The notes beneath the pieces were generated by a model. That model saw nothing but the letters and a program-made list of their open reading frames with translations. It had not been told where the DNA came from and did no database searches. This document shows positions 382 to 7,094 of a DNA stretch of 12,649 nt, in pieces. The first letter of the stretch is position 1; each line of letters starts with the position of its first letter. The position numbers and the translations under genes are program-made. Source of the DNA: Lachnospiraceae bacterium (GTDB lineage: Bacteria; Bacillota; Clostridia; Lachnospirales; Lachnospiraceae); the NCBI GenBank assembly GCA_017476305.1, contig JAFVAA010000538.1, positions 1-12,649 on the forward strand. The letters run 5' to 3'.

Positions 382-3201
382 ATGATGGAGTATCATCAAA
401 TTGAGATTACGATATATGGACTGGTGCAGGGAGTCGGGTTTCGTCCGTTTGTGGCAGAGCAGTCAGAGAAGCTTGACCTTACCGGCACGGTTCGGAATAT
501 CGGCGGAATCGTAAGGATTTCTGCTAGTGGGAAAAAAGAGGCGTTGGACGAGTTCGTTCATCGCCTTTCTGCGTGTCCACCGGAAGGAGCGAGAGTGGAC
601 CGGGTGGAGGTTACAGAAGCATCTGAAGAAATTCATTTTGAAGAAAAATTATCAGAAGGAGTTCCGAAAGAAGTTTTGAGAAGAGAAACTTCTGTATTAG
701 AAAAAAAATCCGGGGGGCAGGCAGAATTTATTATCGTAGAGAGCGAATCGGGGGAGGATAGTCTGCGCTTTTTGCCACAGGATATAGCGACCTGTGATTT
801 CTGTACGGAGGAGCTTTTCAATCCGAAAAACAGGAGATACCGCTATCCGTTTATCAGTTGTACTGCCTGTGGTCCACGGTTTTCTATTATGGAGAATGTT
901 CCATATGACAGAGATACGATTACCATGCGGAATTTTAAAATGTGCCCCGAATGCCGGAGGGAGTATCAGGAAAGGGGAAATAAAAGAAGACATGCGCAGA
1001 CGATTGCCTGTGCGGAGTGCGGACCAGAGGTAAAACTGTATCCATTTGCCATCGTGGAGGAGTTCCCATTTAAGGATGAAGTTTTTAAAGATGAAAATCT
1101 GTTCCATGGGGGCGATGCCTTGGAGGGACAGAAAGAAAAGACTGGAAGACCTTCCGGAAAAGAGATGCATGCATGGGGACTTACAGGAGATACTGCGAAT
1201 ACACCGATAGCGAAAAGTATTCAGATGCTAAAAGAGGGGAAAATTCTGGCTATCAAGGACATCGGAGGCTTTCATTTTGCCTTTGATCCGAAAAACAGGG
1301 AACCGGCAAGGAGACTTAGACATTTTAAGAGACGGGAACGAAAAGCCTTTGCCGTGATGTTTCCATCCGTTTCTGACATTGAAAGGTACTGTGAGGTATC
1401 GGAAACAGAAAAGCGGCTTTTATGCTCGGATGCACGTCCGATTGTCCTTTTGAAAAAGAGACCTGGAATGGATTTCGTGCCGGAGGTCTGTGGAGAGAGC
1501 AGATATATCGGAGCCATGCTCCCGTGCAATCCACTGCAGATTCTGATTTTAAAGGAAACGGGACCTTTGGTGATGACAAGTGGGAACCGGGGTGGAGAGC
1601 CCATTATAACAGACGAGAAAGAAATGTTTGCCTTTTGGGAAGGGCGGGCGGCGAAAGATGATTCTTCCTTTTTTGAAGCACGGGCCGGGAAAACAGAAGA
1701 TAGATTTATGGAAAATCAAGAATGGGAAAAAGATTTTAGGAATGAAATGAAACCGGTGCCGGATGCGATTTTAACACATAATAGAAAGATTGTATATGGT
1801 CTGGATGATTCGATTTATCAGGTGACGATGTGTGGAAATCGGGAGATGATTCAGATAATCCGGCGTGCGAGAGGGCTGGTGCCGGAGCCTGTAGAGCTGC
1901 CTGTACACCTATCCTGTGATACCTTTGCTGCCGGGGGGGATTTAAAGGCGGTTTATGCACTGGGAAGAGAAAACATGGCATATCTCTCCGGACATTTCGG
2001 GGATTTAGAGGATGTACATGCTGCAGAATCACGAGAAAAGGCGCTGGAGGGAATGTGTGAACTTTTCGGGATTTCTCCGGTTCATGCAGTCTGTGACATG
2101 CATCCGGGATATATCTCTGCGAGGCATGTGAAAGAGGAATTGAACTTTGCAGCTATCCCGATGACTGTTCATCAGAAAAGGACATTGAAATGCAGCAGAG
2201 AAAAAAATGAAATAGAAAGAGAGCAGAAAACTTCTTTTGAAAAGAATTATAAAGAGCAGGATATCTTTCAAATCAGGAAAGTACAGCATCACCACGCACA
2301 CATTGCGGCTGTGATGGCAGAATATGCACTGGAGGGAAAGGTGCTTGGAGTTGCCTTTGACGGCACAGGTTATGGAGCGGATGGAACCGTCTGGGGCGGG
2401 GAGTTTCTGCTCTGTGAGGGAAAGGAATTTGTACGTGTGGGGCATTTGGAGGGCGTCTTTTTGACCGGAGGAGATGCATCTGCGAAGAATGCACTGGTCA
2501 CAGCGTATGCGTATCTCTGCGCTGCGGTTAAAAAGGGCTATATGACAGAGGAGGAACGAAGTCTTTTTTTACCGGAGTTTTCAGAAGAAAAAAAACTTCT
2601 TTTAAATGGGGCATTGGAAAATAAGATCAATACGGTGGAGTCTTCTTCCATAGGGCGGCTTTTTGATGCAGCAGCAGCGGTTTTAGGGATTTGCAGGGAA
2701 AACAGCTATGAAGGGGAATGTCCGGAAAGGCTGCAGGCATATGCAGAAAAGTATTTAGAGGAGGCTTATTCTACTACCCCGGATTTGTATGAGAGAAAGG
2801 AGGAAAACAGCTTAGAGAATTTTTTGGAAAACAGAGAAGCAGGAGTGGATTTTTTCATTTATCAGGAGCAGGATATGTGGATGATGGATGGGGTATATTT
2901 GATTTCTTCCTTAGCAAAGAAAAGGAGTGAAGGAGTCCCTGTGGCTAAACTCGCATTTGAATTTCATAGAAGCCTGGCAGGGATGACTGTCCGGATGTGC
3001 GAGAAAATCTATAAGAAAATTGGATGTGTTCGAAAGCAGATTGCACTGGGTGGCGGGACGATGTATAATCGTCTGTTTTTAAAGCTTTTGGTTCCTGCTT
3101 TGGAGGAAAAAGGATATGAAGTCTATATCAATGAAAAGGTTCCATCCGGTGACGGAGGACTGGCATACGGGCAGATGGCACTAGAGGCATGGTGGGATTA
3201 G
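382..3201 (+). CDS. hypF: Carbamoyltransferase HypF, NiFe-hydrogenase maturation
   Basis: HypF is the cytoplasmic enzyme that makes the thiocarboxamide on HypE from carbamoyl phosphate and ATP, the source of the cyanide ligands of the NiFe-hydrogenase active site. All family domains are visible in order: acylphosphatase (about 6-90, motif VQGVGFRPFV at 15-24), a zinc-finger region with four CxxC pairs (C138/C141, C160/C163, C188/C191, C210/C213), a YrdC-like domain (about 270-410, with SGNRGGEPI at 400-408), and a Kae1-like carbamoyltransferase domain (VQHHHAH 634-640, DGTGYGADGT 660-669, GGGTMYNRLF 890-899, PSGDGGLAYG 921-930). GGAGA at 368-372 supports the ATG at 382; a second ATG follows directly. 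At 939 residues it is much longer than the usual 750-780, because of charged insertions between domains. No other hyp gene lies in the window. Confidence 0.97.
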   Translation: MMEYHQIEITIYGLVQGVGFRPFVAEQSEKLDLTGTVRNIGGIVRISASGKKEALDEFVHRLSACPPEGARVDRVEVTEASEEIHFEEKLSEGVPKEVLRRETSVLEKKSGGQAEFIIVESESGEDSLRFLPQDIATCDFCTEELFNPKNRRYRYPFISCTACGPRFSIMENVPYDRDTITMRNFKMCPECRREYQERGNKRRHAQTIACAECGPEVKLYPFAIVEEFPFKDEVFKDENLFHGGDALEGQKEKTGRPSGKEMHAWGLTGDTANTPIAKSIQMLKEGKILAIKDIGGFHFAFDPKNREPARRLRHFKRRERKAFAVMFPSVSDIERYCEVSETEKRLLCSDARPIVLLKKRPGMDFVPEVCGESRYIGAMLPCNPLQILILKETGPLVMTSGNRGGEPIITDEKEMFAFWEGRAAKDDSSFFEARAGKTEDRFMENQEWEKDFRNEMKPVPDAILTHNRKIVYGLDDSIYQVTMCGNREMIQIIRRARGLVPEPVELPVHLSCDTFAAGGDLKAVYALGRENMAYLSGHFGDLEDVHAAESREKALEGMCELFGISPVHAVCDMHPGYISARHVKEELNFAAIPMTVHQKRTLKCSREKNEIEREQKTSFEKNYKEQDIFQIRKVQHHHAHIAAVMAEYALEGKVLGVAFDGTGYGADGTVWGGEFLLCEGKEFVRVGHLEGVFLTGGDASAKNALVTAYAYLCAAVKKGYMTEEERSLFLPEFSEEKKLLLNGALENKINTVESSSIGRLFDAAAAVLGICRENSYEGECPERLQAYAEKYLEEAYSTTPDLYERKEENSLENFLENREAGVDFFIYQEQDMWMMDGVYLISSLAKKRSEGVPVAKLAFEFHRSLAGMTVRMCEKIYKKIGCVRKQIALGGGTMYNRLFLKLLVPALEEKGYEVYINEKVPSGDGGLAYGQMALEAWWD

Positions 3202-3336: not shown

Positions 3337-3714
3337 ATGCAGTTTGTTGGAAAAATAAACAAAGAGATTTATCAATGTATTACAGAAAATATTTTAACAG
3401 ATGAGGTGATTATAACAGATGAACGAATAGCACACATTCGAGATAGACATCCGGGAGATTATGAAAAATTTTTTCATTATATTTCTGGAATTATTGCTGA
3501 ACCAGATTATATTATAGCATCAAATAAAAAAAATACAGCTGTTTTGTTAAAAAATTTTGAAGAAAAGGACAGAAAATTCAAAGTGATTTTGAGATTAAAA
3601 TTGGAGACTGAGCCTTTTTCGTATAAAAACTCTATCGTTTCTTTTTGGCACATTGGAGAAACAACATGGAAGAAAACTATAAAAAACAAGTTGGTTCTTT
3701 ACAAACGGACATAA
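3337..3714 (+). CDS. Small PBECR-like (Barnase/EndoU/ColicinE5-D/RelE-type) nuclease, possible toxin
   Basis: This 125-residue protein has the look of the PBECR families (phage Barnase-EndoU-ColicinE5/D-RelE-like nucleases). Near the N-terminus lies ITDERIAHIRDRHPGDYE (26-43), with a conserved-looking His33 and Arg37-His38. EPDYI follows at 55-59, then a beta-rich middle, then WHIGETTWKK (104-113) near the C-terminus. Such proteins occur in phages and mobile elements and are predicted RNases or toxin domains. There is no signal peptide or membrane segment. GGAAGAGG at 3323-3330 places the ATG at 3337 well. No adjacent protein antitoxin is visible; instead the end of the gene carries the promoter of a structured RNA. 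The assignment rests on motif resemblance read by eye, and the catalytic role is inferred. Confidence 0.6.
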   Translation: MQFVGKINKEIYQCITENILTDEVIITDERIAHIRDRHPGDYEKFFHYISGIIAEPDYIIASNKKNTAVLLKNFEEKDRKFKVILRLKLETEPFSYKNSIVSFWHIGETTWKKTIKNKLVLYKRT

Positions 3715-3726
3715 TTTTTGTATAAT
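3698..3726 (+). promoter_or_regulatory. Near-consensus sigma-A promoter for the structured RNA
   Basis: TTTACA at 3698-3703 and a perfect TATAAT at 3721-3726 are separated by exactly 17 bases. The -35 element lies inside the last codons of the preceding nuclease gene. A start about 7 bases after the -10 box would be near 3733, just before the first arm of the inverted repeat at 3741. It could also supply transcription to the gene starting at 4017. Confidence 0.7.
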
Positions 3727-3732
3727 TATGAT

Positions 3733-3851
3733 ATATATAAATAGAAAAGGAAACTTTGAGGTGGAAAATGCGTTCCCATACGCCACATGCTTTTTGTAAT
3801 GGGCAAAAGTGATGTCGGGAGTGACGCTCCGACCAAAGTTTCCTTTTCTAT
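3733..3851 (+). ncRNA. Candidate structured RNA: 18-bp closing stem, two inner hairpins, possible pseudoknot
   Basis: Arms 3741-3758 and 3834-3851 are perfect reverse complements over 18 bases and would close a helix of about 111 nt. Inside, hairpin P2 pairs 3761-3763 with 3784-3786 and 3770-3773 (GCGT) with 3780-3783 (ACGC). Hairpin P3 pairs 3814-3821 with 3827-3833 with one bulged G, and its 3' strand abuts the closing stem, as in a coaxially stacked three-way junction. The P2 loop CCCAT (3775-3779) can pair with ATGGG (3799-3803), a possible pseudoknot. A strong promoter starts just upstream and no reading frame fits. I do not recognise a known RNA family. It could be a regulatory or effector RNA, an untranslated leader of the next gene, or a small element with terminal inverted repeats; I see no target-site duplication. 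Confidence 0.55.
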
Positions 3852-3854
3852 GTG

Positions 3855-3882
3855 AATAAATATTTTTATTAGTGTATTTATT
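3855..3882 (+). repeat. AT-only hairpin just after the structured RNA
   Basis: AATAAATA (3855-3862) and TATTTATT (3875-3882) are perfect 8-base inverted repeats, followed by a short T-rich stretch. It could be a weak transcription end for the RNA, but a helix of A-T pairs only would be unstable, and it may be chance in AT-rich DNA. Confidence 0.25.
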
Positions 3883-6414: not shown

Positions 6415-6696
6415 ATGAGTACAACGATTACTTTTAGTACAGACGAAGAATTGAAAAATCAGGCTTCAAAACTGTTTGATTCTCTTGGAATGGATTTGAC
6501 GGTAGCACTAAATCTGTTTATGAAGCAAGCTGTGTTAAAGCAAAAATATCCATGCAGCTTAGAAATAGAATTAGTTGAAAATGCAAAGCCGACTTATCCA
6601 GATTCCTTTTTTAATTTGTTTGGTTCGGGGAAAGGACTTGGATTTGATGAAGAGCCAGAGGATTTGTTAATAGAAAAGGAGAATATAGCTTTATGA
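6415..6696 (+). CDS. RelB/DinJ-family antitoxin
   Basis: The 93-residue protein begins with a ribbon-helix-helix segment typical of RelB/DinJ: a TTITFSTDEELKNQASKLF strand and helix (3-21), then SLGMDLTVALNLFMKQAV (23-40). The acidic C-terminal half (about 55-93) is probably the disordered part that wraps the toxin. It should bind its own promoter as a dimer and neutralise the downstream toxin. GGAGGGGG (6400-6407) is a strong SD for ATG 6415. Its stop codon overlaps the toxin start (ATGA, 6693-6696), so the two are translationally coupled. The usual partner of this antitoxin type is a RelE/YafQ toxin; here it is a PIN-domain toxin. Confidence 0.88.
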   Translation: MSTTITFSTDEELKNQASKLFDSLGMDLTVALNLFMKQAVLKQKYPCSLEIELVENAKPTYPDSFFNLFGSGKGLGFDEEPEDLLIEKENIAL

Positions 6697-7094
6697 AATA
6701 TTTTTTGGATACGAACATAATCATATATTCTTTAAAAGATTCTTTTCCTGCAGTTAAAACACATTTTTTGAAAATACCATCACAATCTATTGTAATACCA
6801 GCAGTTGTAATGGCTGAAATAGAATATGGGGCTATGAAAAGTTATAATTATGAAAAGACGATTAAGCAGTATAAAATGTTTACTGATGTATTTGAAAAAG
6901 TTTCTTTCTCAGAGGAAGCTTGTTATTATTACGGAAAAATAAGAAGTGATTTGGAGAAGCAGGGAAAAATCATTGGTGCAAATGATATGCTGATTGCTTC
7001 GATTGTGTTAGCAGAAAAAGGTATATTGGTAACACATAATATTGGTGAATTTCAAAGGATAAAGGAACTGCAAATTGAGGATTGGACAATTTAA
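6693..7094 (+). CDS. VapC-type PIN-domain toxin (RNase)
   Basis: The 133-residue length and motifs fit VapC: LDTNIII with Asp6 at the N-terminus, AEIEYG with Glu42, GANDMLIAS with Asp98, and THNIGEF (114-120) at the end. These acidic residues form the metal site of PIN ribonucleases, and VapC toxins cleave tRNA or rRNA. All catalytic positions look intact, so it is probably active when free. The start overlaps the antitoxin stop by 4 bases, and AAAGGAG at 6674-6680 upstream gives a possible SD. A clear terminator follows. The pairing with a RelB/DinJ antitoxin rather than VapB is the odd feature. Confidence 0.9.
   Translation: MKYFLDTNIIIYSLKDSFPAVKTHFLKIPSQSIVIPAVVMAEIEYGAMKSYNYEKTIKQYKMFTDVFEKVSFSEEACYYYGKIRSDLEKQGKIIGANDMLIASIVLAEKGILVTHNIGEFQRIKELQIEDWTI

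Follow-up and report, generated by a model that had tools for sequence, protein, structure and literature searches.

The structured RNA encoded in a 12,649-nt stretch of Lachnospiraceae DNA (hereafter the window, at its full length) belongs to the skipping-rope family, and it is virtually certain that this RNA and the nuclease-like PBECR gene directly ahead of it form a genetic partnership. An RNA that lies behind a predicted RNase gene and co-evolves with it suggests an antidote of the toxin, and, judged from sequence comparison, this is probably the role of the skipping-rope RNA. That the antidote would act by binding the protein directly is likely as well, by analogy with known systems, and we hold it slightly less firmly. 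We infer that PBECR would be toxic and would act as an RNase, and that the RNA would bind and neutralise it.

A PBECR gene and a skipping-rope RNA in the window

The features of the pair are collected in Table 1. The spacing between the end of the PBECR gene and the skipping-rope RNA is 37 nt, and the final codons of the gene contain the −35 box of the RNA promoter. The near-consensus promoter reported by the first-pass annotation (TTTACA at 3698-3703, 17 nt, TATAAT at 3721-3726) is the only promoter-like match of the window that reaches 11/12. The pair is flanked upstream by a hypF-type carbamoyltransferase gene (382-3201, + strand) and downstream by a gene for a 407-aa HSDR_N_2 protein (PF13588; 3987-5210, + strand). 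At 2.6 kb from the RNA, a RelB-like gene (just under the Pfam cut-off) and a PIN-domain gene (6415-7094, + strand) probably constitute a type II toxin-antitoxin pair.

Table 1. Features of the PBECR-skipping-rope pair (positions in the window)
Feature	Position	Strand	Remarks
PBECR2/PBECR3 gene, 125 aa, solo	3337-3714	+	toxin candidate, predicted to be an endoribonuclease of the BECR fold; His33 and Ser102 are candidate catalytic residues
Sigma-70-type promoter of the skipping-rope RNA, TTTACA-17-TATAAT	3698-3726	+	11/12, top match of the window (predicted)
Skipping-rope RNA (RF02924) including extended closing helix	3741-3851	+	cmscan 3751-3841, 52.9 bits
P1 closing helix, 5′ strand	3741-3758	+	pairs with 3834-3851; 12/18 pairs changed on both sides
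P2 hairpin, 3761-3764/3776-3779, loop holds 3770-3774	3761-3779	+	all cells paired, 1 compensatory pair
Kissing-loop strand in P2 loop	3770-3774	+	pairs with 3823-3827; A5 shows only U-G/C-G variation
P3 hairpin, 3782-3784/3802-3804, 3786-3788/3799-3801, 3789-3790/3796-3797	3782-3804	+	all cells paired, 2 compensatory pairs
P4 hairpin, 3814-3818/3829-3833, loop holds 3823-3827	3814-3833	+	all cells paired, 2 compensatory pairs
Kissing-loop strand in P4 loop	3823-3827	+	pairs with 3770-3774
P1 closing helix, 3′ strand	3834-3851	+	pairs with 3741-3758

In Pfam, the window gene matched only PBECR2 and PBECR3 at E ≤ 0.001, and at the same threshold the intact RNA-linked domains matched PBECR2 in 55/56 cases and PBECR3 in 52/56. 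The predicted active site of PBECR comprises a His of the N-terminal helix and a C-terminal Thr/Ser, and the RNase activity is likewise presented as a prediction in the available part of the source (PMC5512222). In the window protein, His33 falls within a helix (28-37) and Ser102 within a strand (98-106); the homologues kept the candidate site, with the His in 51/56 and the Thr/Ser in 56/56. We infer that the window PBECR is a BECR-fold RNase, as predicted, and a candidate toxin. NCBIfam and PADLOC gave no name to PBECR, and the one matching family in PHROGs is annotated as being of unknown function. A PDB sequence search returned a chance match only (E 1.8), and Foldseek returned nothing at E ≤ 0.001.

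The RNA adopts the skipping-rope fold

The structured RNA with a promoter of its own that had been proposed earlier was borne out by its closing helix, its fold energy and the 11/12 promoter match. It had been presented as unrecognised, but the Rfam covariance search identified it as RF02924, skipping-rope, at 3751-3841 (52.9 bits versus a gathering score of 36.7). Matches to Rfam rliE lay far under the cut-off and were discarded. The folding energy of 3733-3860 was −46.4 kcal/mol, as compared to −25.0 ± 3.4 in shuffles (z −6.2; 0/200 as good). The minimum-energy fold of the single strand, which was without P2 and P3 of the comparative fold, was set aside.

For the comparison of folds, the window RNA was aligned with five relatives that share its subtype (A5). 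Of the elements in the first-pass annotation, the closing helix of 18 perfect base pairs (3741-3758/3834-3851) was present, as was the second inner hairpin (3814-3833). Its first inner hairpin (3761-3786) fared worse, as the fourth pair was broken in 4/6 A5 RNAs with no compensatory change. The pseudoknot proposed between CCCAT and ATGGG also showed no compensatory change in the six RNAs, and 96.7% of its cells stayed paired through one-sided changes. In place of these two elements we adopt a fold resembling that of Rfam, composed of P1-P4 and a pseudoknot in the form of a covarying kissing loop; over the whole fold, 94.2% of the A5 cells were paired and 17/40 pairs had changed on both sides. 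In the six RNAs, P2, P3, P4 and the kissing loop were paired in 100% of the cells, and compensatory changes were seen in P1, P2, P3 and P4.

The kissing loop is near-constant within A5, and its support comes from other subtypes. In a wider test, where 55/151 RNAs fitted the search pattern, we found 13 distinct loop pairs, 12 of them perfectly complementary, versus 13/156 non-cognate combinations; at the three variable positions, 0/10,000 permutations reached the observed mean. P1 and P4 covaried across 73 RNAs. On these comparative grounds, the score together with covarying P1-P4 and the loop-loop pseudoknot places the window RNA in RF02924.

The family was reportedly first described by Weinberg et al. 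in 2017, and we know of no function for it. Rfam assigns it the type sRNA gene and depicts it with a pseudoknot supported by covariation (PMC7779021). Skipping-rope has been counted among phage ncRNAs (PMC8501573) and serves merely as a data set in the available portions of PMC11507696 and PMC7682815. Within the literature searched, parts of which were accessible as full text, no function of the RNA and no work joining it to PBECR was found; the passages of PMC7779021, PMC8501573, PMC11507696 and PMC7682815 in which the RNA is named contain no link to a toxin.

PBECR genes and skipping-rope RNAs are linked in both directions

Rfam searches returned RF02924 matches in 10/61 relatives, 71/392 genomes of the order and 28/398 of the phylum. 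The 125 distinct RNA places, including four tandem groups, amounted to 119 clusters in 100 genomes. PBECR was located upstream on the same strand as an intact gene in 56 clusters and as a broken one in 10; it was convergent in 2 and absent in 49, the remaining 2 clusters being situated at contig ends. The distance from the stop of the intact gene to the RNA model was 18-91 nt. In all 66 clusters with a same-strand PBECR the RNA was downstream of it, and no PBECR was found downstream of an RNA on the same strand within 1.5 kb either side in the 119 clusters. Three further RNA places from the search of the phylum, of which one has an intact PBECR in the corresponding position and the others have none, brought the totals over 122 clusters to 57 intact and 10 broken PBECR genes upstream on the same strand, and 55 clusters without one there. 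An opposite-strand PBECR, convergent to the RNA, occurred in just 2 of the 119 clusters (L098 and L122), which both belong to one genome (G696).

The RNA had previously been tied to either the PBECR-like or the HSDR_N gene. The first of these ties held, the linkage being strong in both directions, whereas the second was rejected: phmmer with the window protein detected an HSDR_N relative within 1.5 kb of the RNA in 1/119 clusters, which is the window itself, although remote relatives could escape this search. The source genome (~79% complete) carries a second skipping-rope RNA, also behind a PBECR gene, the frame of which is broken. With the RNA present at two PBECR-linked places of this genome, it is no repeat family there, and a transposable repeat was dismissed. 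A third PBECR of the source genome (L176, 542-832, − strand) is N-terminally truncated and has no RNA.

For the reverse direction, the fair test was a search of 146 genomes with the Pfam PBECR2 model, a query free of RNA-linked bias. This yielded 20 places, 18 of which had the RNA behind them; the two places without it, permissive scan included, were an open frame of 151 aa (G086:C27) and a truncated copy (G000:C313). The RNA adjoined window-type PBECR in 33/35 loci of viral contigs and in 80/80 genes of named genomes (the best 80 of 180 relatives), both counts being biased upward because RNA-linked genes had been used to build the query sets A2 and A6. In one of the viral exceptions (L126) an IS had split off the RNA, and the other (L156) was cut by the contig end. 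Among the best 80 of the 180 relatives, the R1 model started 24-60 nt past the tblastn match in 79 cases and 142 nt past it in one, and 9 of these 80 loci contained a further RNA. The linkage extended to a second phylum, as the RNA was present in 6/6 records comprising Fusobacterium plasmids (5 of 7 matching) and one matching phage record.

Several details of these loci deserve description. The IS in L126 (3485-5356; ~2 kb, 623-aa transposase) is inserted between the MuF-PBECR gene and the RNA and is accompanied by a 161-bp direct duplication. In another viral contig (L129), the skipping-rope RNA is followed after ~250 nt by GP20-b (RF03003; 3757-3817), which is likewise a candidate RNA. In the Fusobacterium plasmids L178-L180, L182 and L183, a gene of ~75-80 aa directly precedes PBECR, and those of L178 and L179 weakly match HTH profiles.

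The RNA has its own predicted promoter beyond the window as well. Within 70 nt upstream, a promoter-like pair (at least 9/12) was found for 62 of the 72 RNA places that follow a PBECR hit, where 14.7 were expected from shuffles and the downstream control gave 5/71. For the other RNA places the count was 30/53 (8.4 expected; downstream control 7/53). By eye, the order in L178 is toxin stop, terminator-like hairpin, TTGACA and TATAAT, and then the RNA.

The RNA and the toxin candidate diverge together

Protein distances and RNA-core distances were strongly correlated (Mantel rho 0.761 over 82 pairs; the highest value among 2000 permutations was 0.159), also for the 67 pairs under 70% identity (0.717; null maximum 0.145). 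The clusterings of RNA and toxin agreed fully at three groups, and with an adjusted Rand index of 0.78 at eight. The nearest RNA from another genome belonged to the same toxin clade (of five) in 81/82 cases, near-duplicates included. Four genomes carry toxins from two clades, and there 8/8 RNAs tracked the clade and not the host. Protein families of at least 50 aa recurred beside the pair in at most 4/56 loci downstream and 2/56 upstream. The skipping-rope RNA was the only constant companion of PBECR that we found, proteins of at least 50 aa having been compared.

Skipping-rope RNAs often outlast the toxin candidate and form arrays of unlike members

The RNA persisted beside a broken PBECR in 10/119 clusters and stood without PBECR in 49/119. 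A tblastn search with all PBECR proteins gave at least 25 bits upstream on the right strand for 5/50 orphan RNAs, as compared to 1, 0 and 1 in three controls; 4 of these 5 matches, all weak, lay within 70 nt of the RNA. With a weak remnant in only 4/50 orphans, most orphan RNAs show none. In view of the clusters without detectable PBECR (the 49/119 and 2/3 of the later ones), the RNA may have other roles. The PBECR frames of L001 (1627-2030, − strand) and L008 (987-1360, + strand), from one genus, are broken at about the same site of the domain (profile positions 71-79), and the RNA behind each is intact. This may reflect shared decay, a sequencing error or recoding.

Single RNAs made up 115/119 clusters, and the others were four arrays of 3, 3, 2 and 2 RNAs. 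All four arrays combined unlike RNAs (core distance 0.35-0.81), and two of the four mixed RNAs of different toxin clades. Among RNAs paired with an intact toxin, the nearest relatives of the array members were at a distance of 0.02-0.26. In L186, a PBECR 65% identical to that of the window was accompanied by its RNA and two further RNAs. RNAs that outlast a broken or lost toxin and that gather in unlike arrays behave in the manner of immunity genes, which would not be expected of a cofactor or a 3′ element.

Some orphan RNAs were encountered behind other toxin-antitoxin pairs: RelB-containing type II pairs with ParE (L010), YafQ (L058) or PIN (L089), and a HEPN-MNT pair (L101). In addition, the RNA of L012 is accompanied by a DUF2442 gene, with a gene resembling ParE at a greater distance upstream, and in L108 one gene matches HicA weakly and under the cut-off. 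Orphans may settle beside toxin-antitoxin modules, or else toxins other than PBECR may be served by some of the RNAs. As the antidote model does not predict such neighbours, the orphans behind type II and HEPN-MNT pairs were counted against it.

PBECR domains on phage-head proteins

Part of the PBECR domains sit C-terminally on MuF or minor-head proteins, which is a likeness to the MuF polymorphic toxins of temperate phages. Thus, the L062 gene encodes a Phage_Mu_F protein and the L081 gene a minor capsid protein, both with a C-terminal PBECR2 and the RNA behind. At least 100 aa preceded the PBECR domain in 6/57 genome rows, 23/34 viral loci and 24/79 named-genome loci. According to the available text of PMC5576092 and PMC12226406, genes for MuF toxins are followed, or are expected to be followed, by genes for small immunity proteins. 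In the loci described here, the skipping-rope RNA occupies this immunity position. The two cases differ in that the immunity factors of MuF toxins are proteins and here would be RNA, and in that the window PBECR is a solo gene without a MuF or minor-head part.

Discussion

In the model that we favour, positions 3337-3851 would constitute a two-part mobile module, in which an RNase toxin of the BECR fold (PBECR2/3) precedes its antidote, the compact skipping-rope RNA with its kissing loop, expressed from its own promoter. The folded RNA would bind and block its cognate RNase in the manner of type III RNA antitoxins. If the module were lost with a plasmid or prophage, the RNase would be freed in cells without the RNA, and the entry of a virion with a MuF-PBECR protein would deliver the RNase into cells that lack the RNA. 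On this view, RNAs that stand alone or in arrays would provide immunity against the toxins of relatives. The broader idea, that skipping-rope RNAs are immunity RNAs against phage-head (MuF-PBECR) toxins and the solo toxins of plasmids and genomes, with single antidotes and gathered arrays of unlike ones as a small repertoire against competing phages, appears plausible to us, if somewhat doubtful on balance.

Other explanations of the pairing have to be weighed against the antidote model. The fixed linkage and the co-divergence would suit any obligate RNA-protein pair, including one in which the RNA is a working partner that guides or activates PBECR, the RNA-protein particle being the effector, for example against phages. 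However, a cofactor that lacks its enzyme should decay, and the RNA persists without the nuclease in 49/119 clusters and beside a broken gene in 10; moreover, arrays hold subtypes whose own toxins are missing from the locus, and a virion-fused PBECR would require packaging of the RNA too. We therefore consider a working partner unlikely. Slightly less likely still is that the RNA acts in cis on the toxin mRNA, as a 3′ stabiliser, a terminator or an autoregulatory cleavage site. This would suit its position 18-91 nt past the stop of the intact gene, where the closing helix could stop transcription, but it fits poorly with the own promoter predicted before 62/72 of the RNAs, with the terminator-like hairpin that was seen by eye ahead of the RNA promoter in L178, and with the orphan RNAs, the arrays and the two convergent cases in G696.

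A protein antitoxin of PBECR, with the RNA doing something else, would be in line with the Fusobacterium plasmids, where a small HTH-like gene immediately precedes PBECR, and with the several orphan RNAs behind type II or HEPN-MNT pairs. Set against this are the scarcity of recurring protein neighbours of at least 50 aa among the 56 intact loci, which also separates the PBECR-RNA pair from type II toxin-antitoxin systems, and the identity of the neighbours in the window, which are hypF and the HSDR_N gene; we regard this option as improbable. Finally, the occurrence of the two genes on viral contigs and plasmids, and the copy split by an IS, could mean that they merely hitch-hike in shared mobile cassettes without functional contact. 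This is very improbable indeed, as the pair is kept while the other neighbours change, and as the RNA subtype follows the toxin clade within a genome for 8/8 RNAs.

Among known systems, the antidote model comes closest to type III toxin-antitoxin systems, to which, besides ToxIN, CptIN and TenpIN belong. ToxIN consists of an endoribonuclease and a pseudoknotted RNA (PMC8860590 and PMC5772629, available text), and the pair described here shares this combination, its endoribonuclease being a predicted one. In type III systems, however, the antitoxin RNA is upstream of the toxin gene and consists of tandem repeats of one unit, whereas the skipping-rope RNA was downstream in 66/66 same-strand clusters, is a single RNA or comes in unlike units, and has a separate predicted promoter. 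PBECR takes the place of a ToxN-, CptN- or TenpN-type toxin. Since the logic is that of type III while layout, RNA family and protein differ, we refer to the pair as type III-like rather than classing it within type III.

The mechanism proposed for PBECR and skipping-rope has a counterpart in AbiF-RCd22 of a Clostridioides difficile prophage, in which a phage-borne toxin is neutralised by a small structured ncRNA via direct binding (PMC12373285, accessible sections). According to the same sections, that RNA is upstream of and co-transcribed with its Abi_2 toxin, unlike the downstream skipping-rope RNA with its own predicted promoter. The RNA and protein families differ too, and Abi_2 and the abiF motif were not among the window matches. 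The PBECR domains of polyvalent proteins share their Pfam families and predicted active site with the window gene, and the available text of the source (PMC5512222) makes no mention of a noncoding RNA or an RNA antitoxin. With regard to RF02924, the present analysis concerns the same family and adds a partner gene, coupled evolution and arrays.

Together, the results give a partner and a likely job to a family that had been an orphan in Rfam and whose pseudoknot is well supported. To our knowledge, only protein inhibitors are known for the BECR RNase fold. If the antidote model is true, the RNA-antitoxin systems would be joined by one in which the gene order is reversed and the antidote has a promoter to itself, and a class of phage-head toxins would acquire its missing immunity factor. 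RNA instead of protein immunity to a polymorphic toxin would then be a new principle. The strong co-divergence itself represents a large natural data set on how an RNA may recognise one protein versus its cousin.
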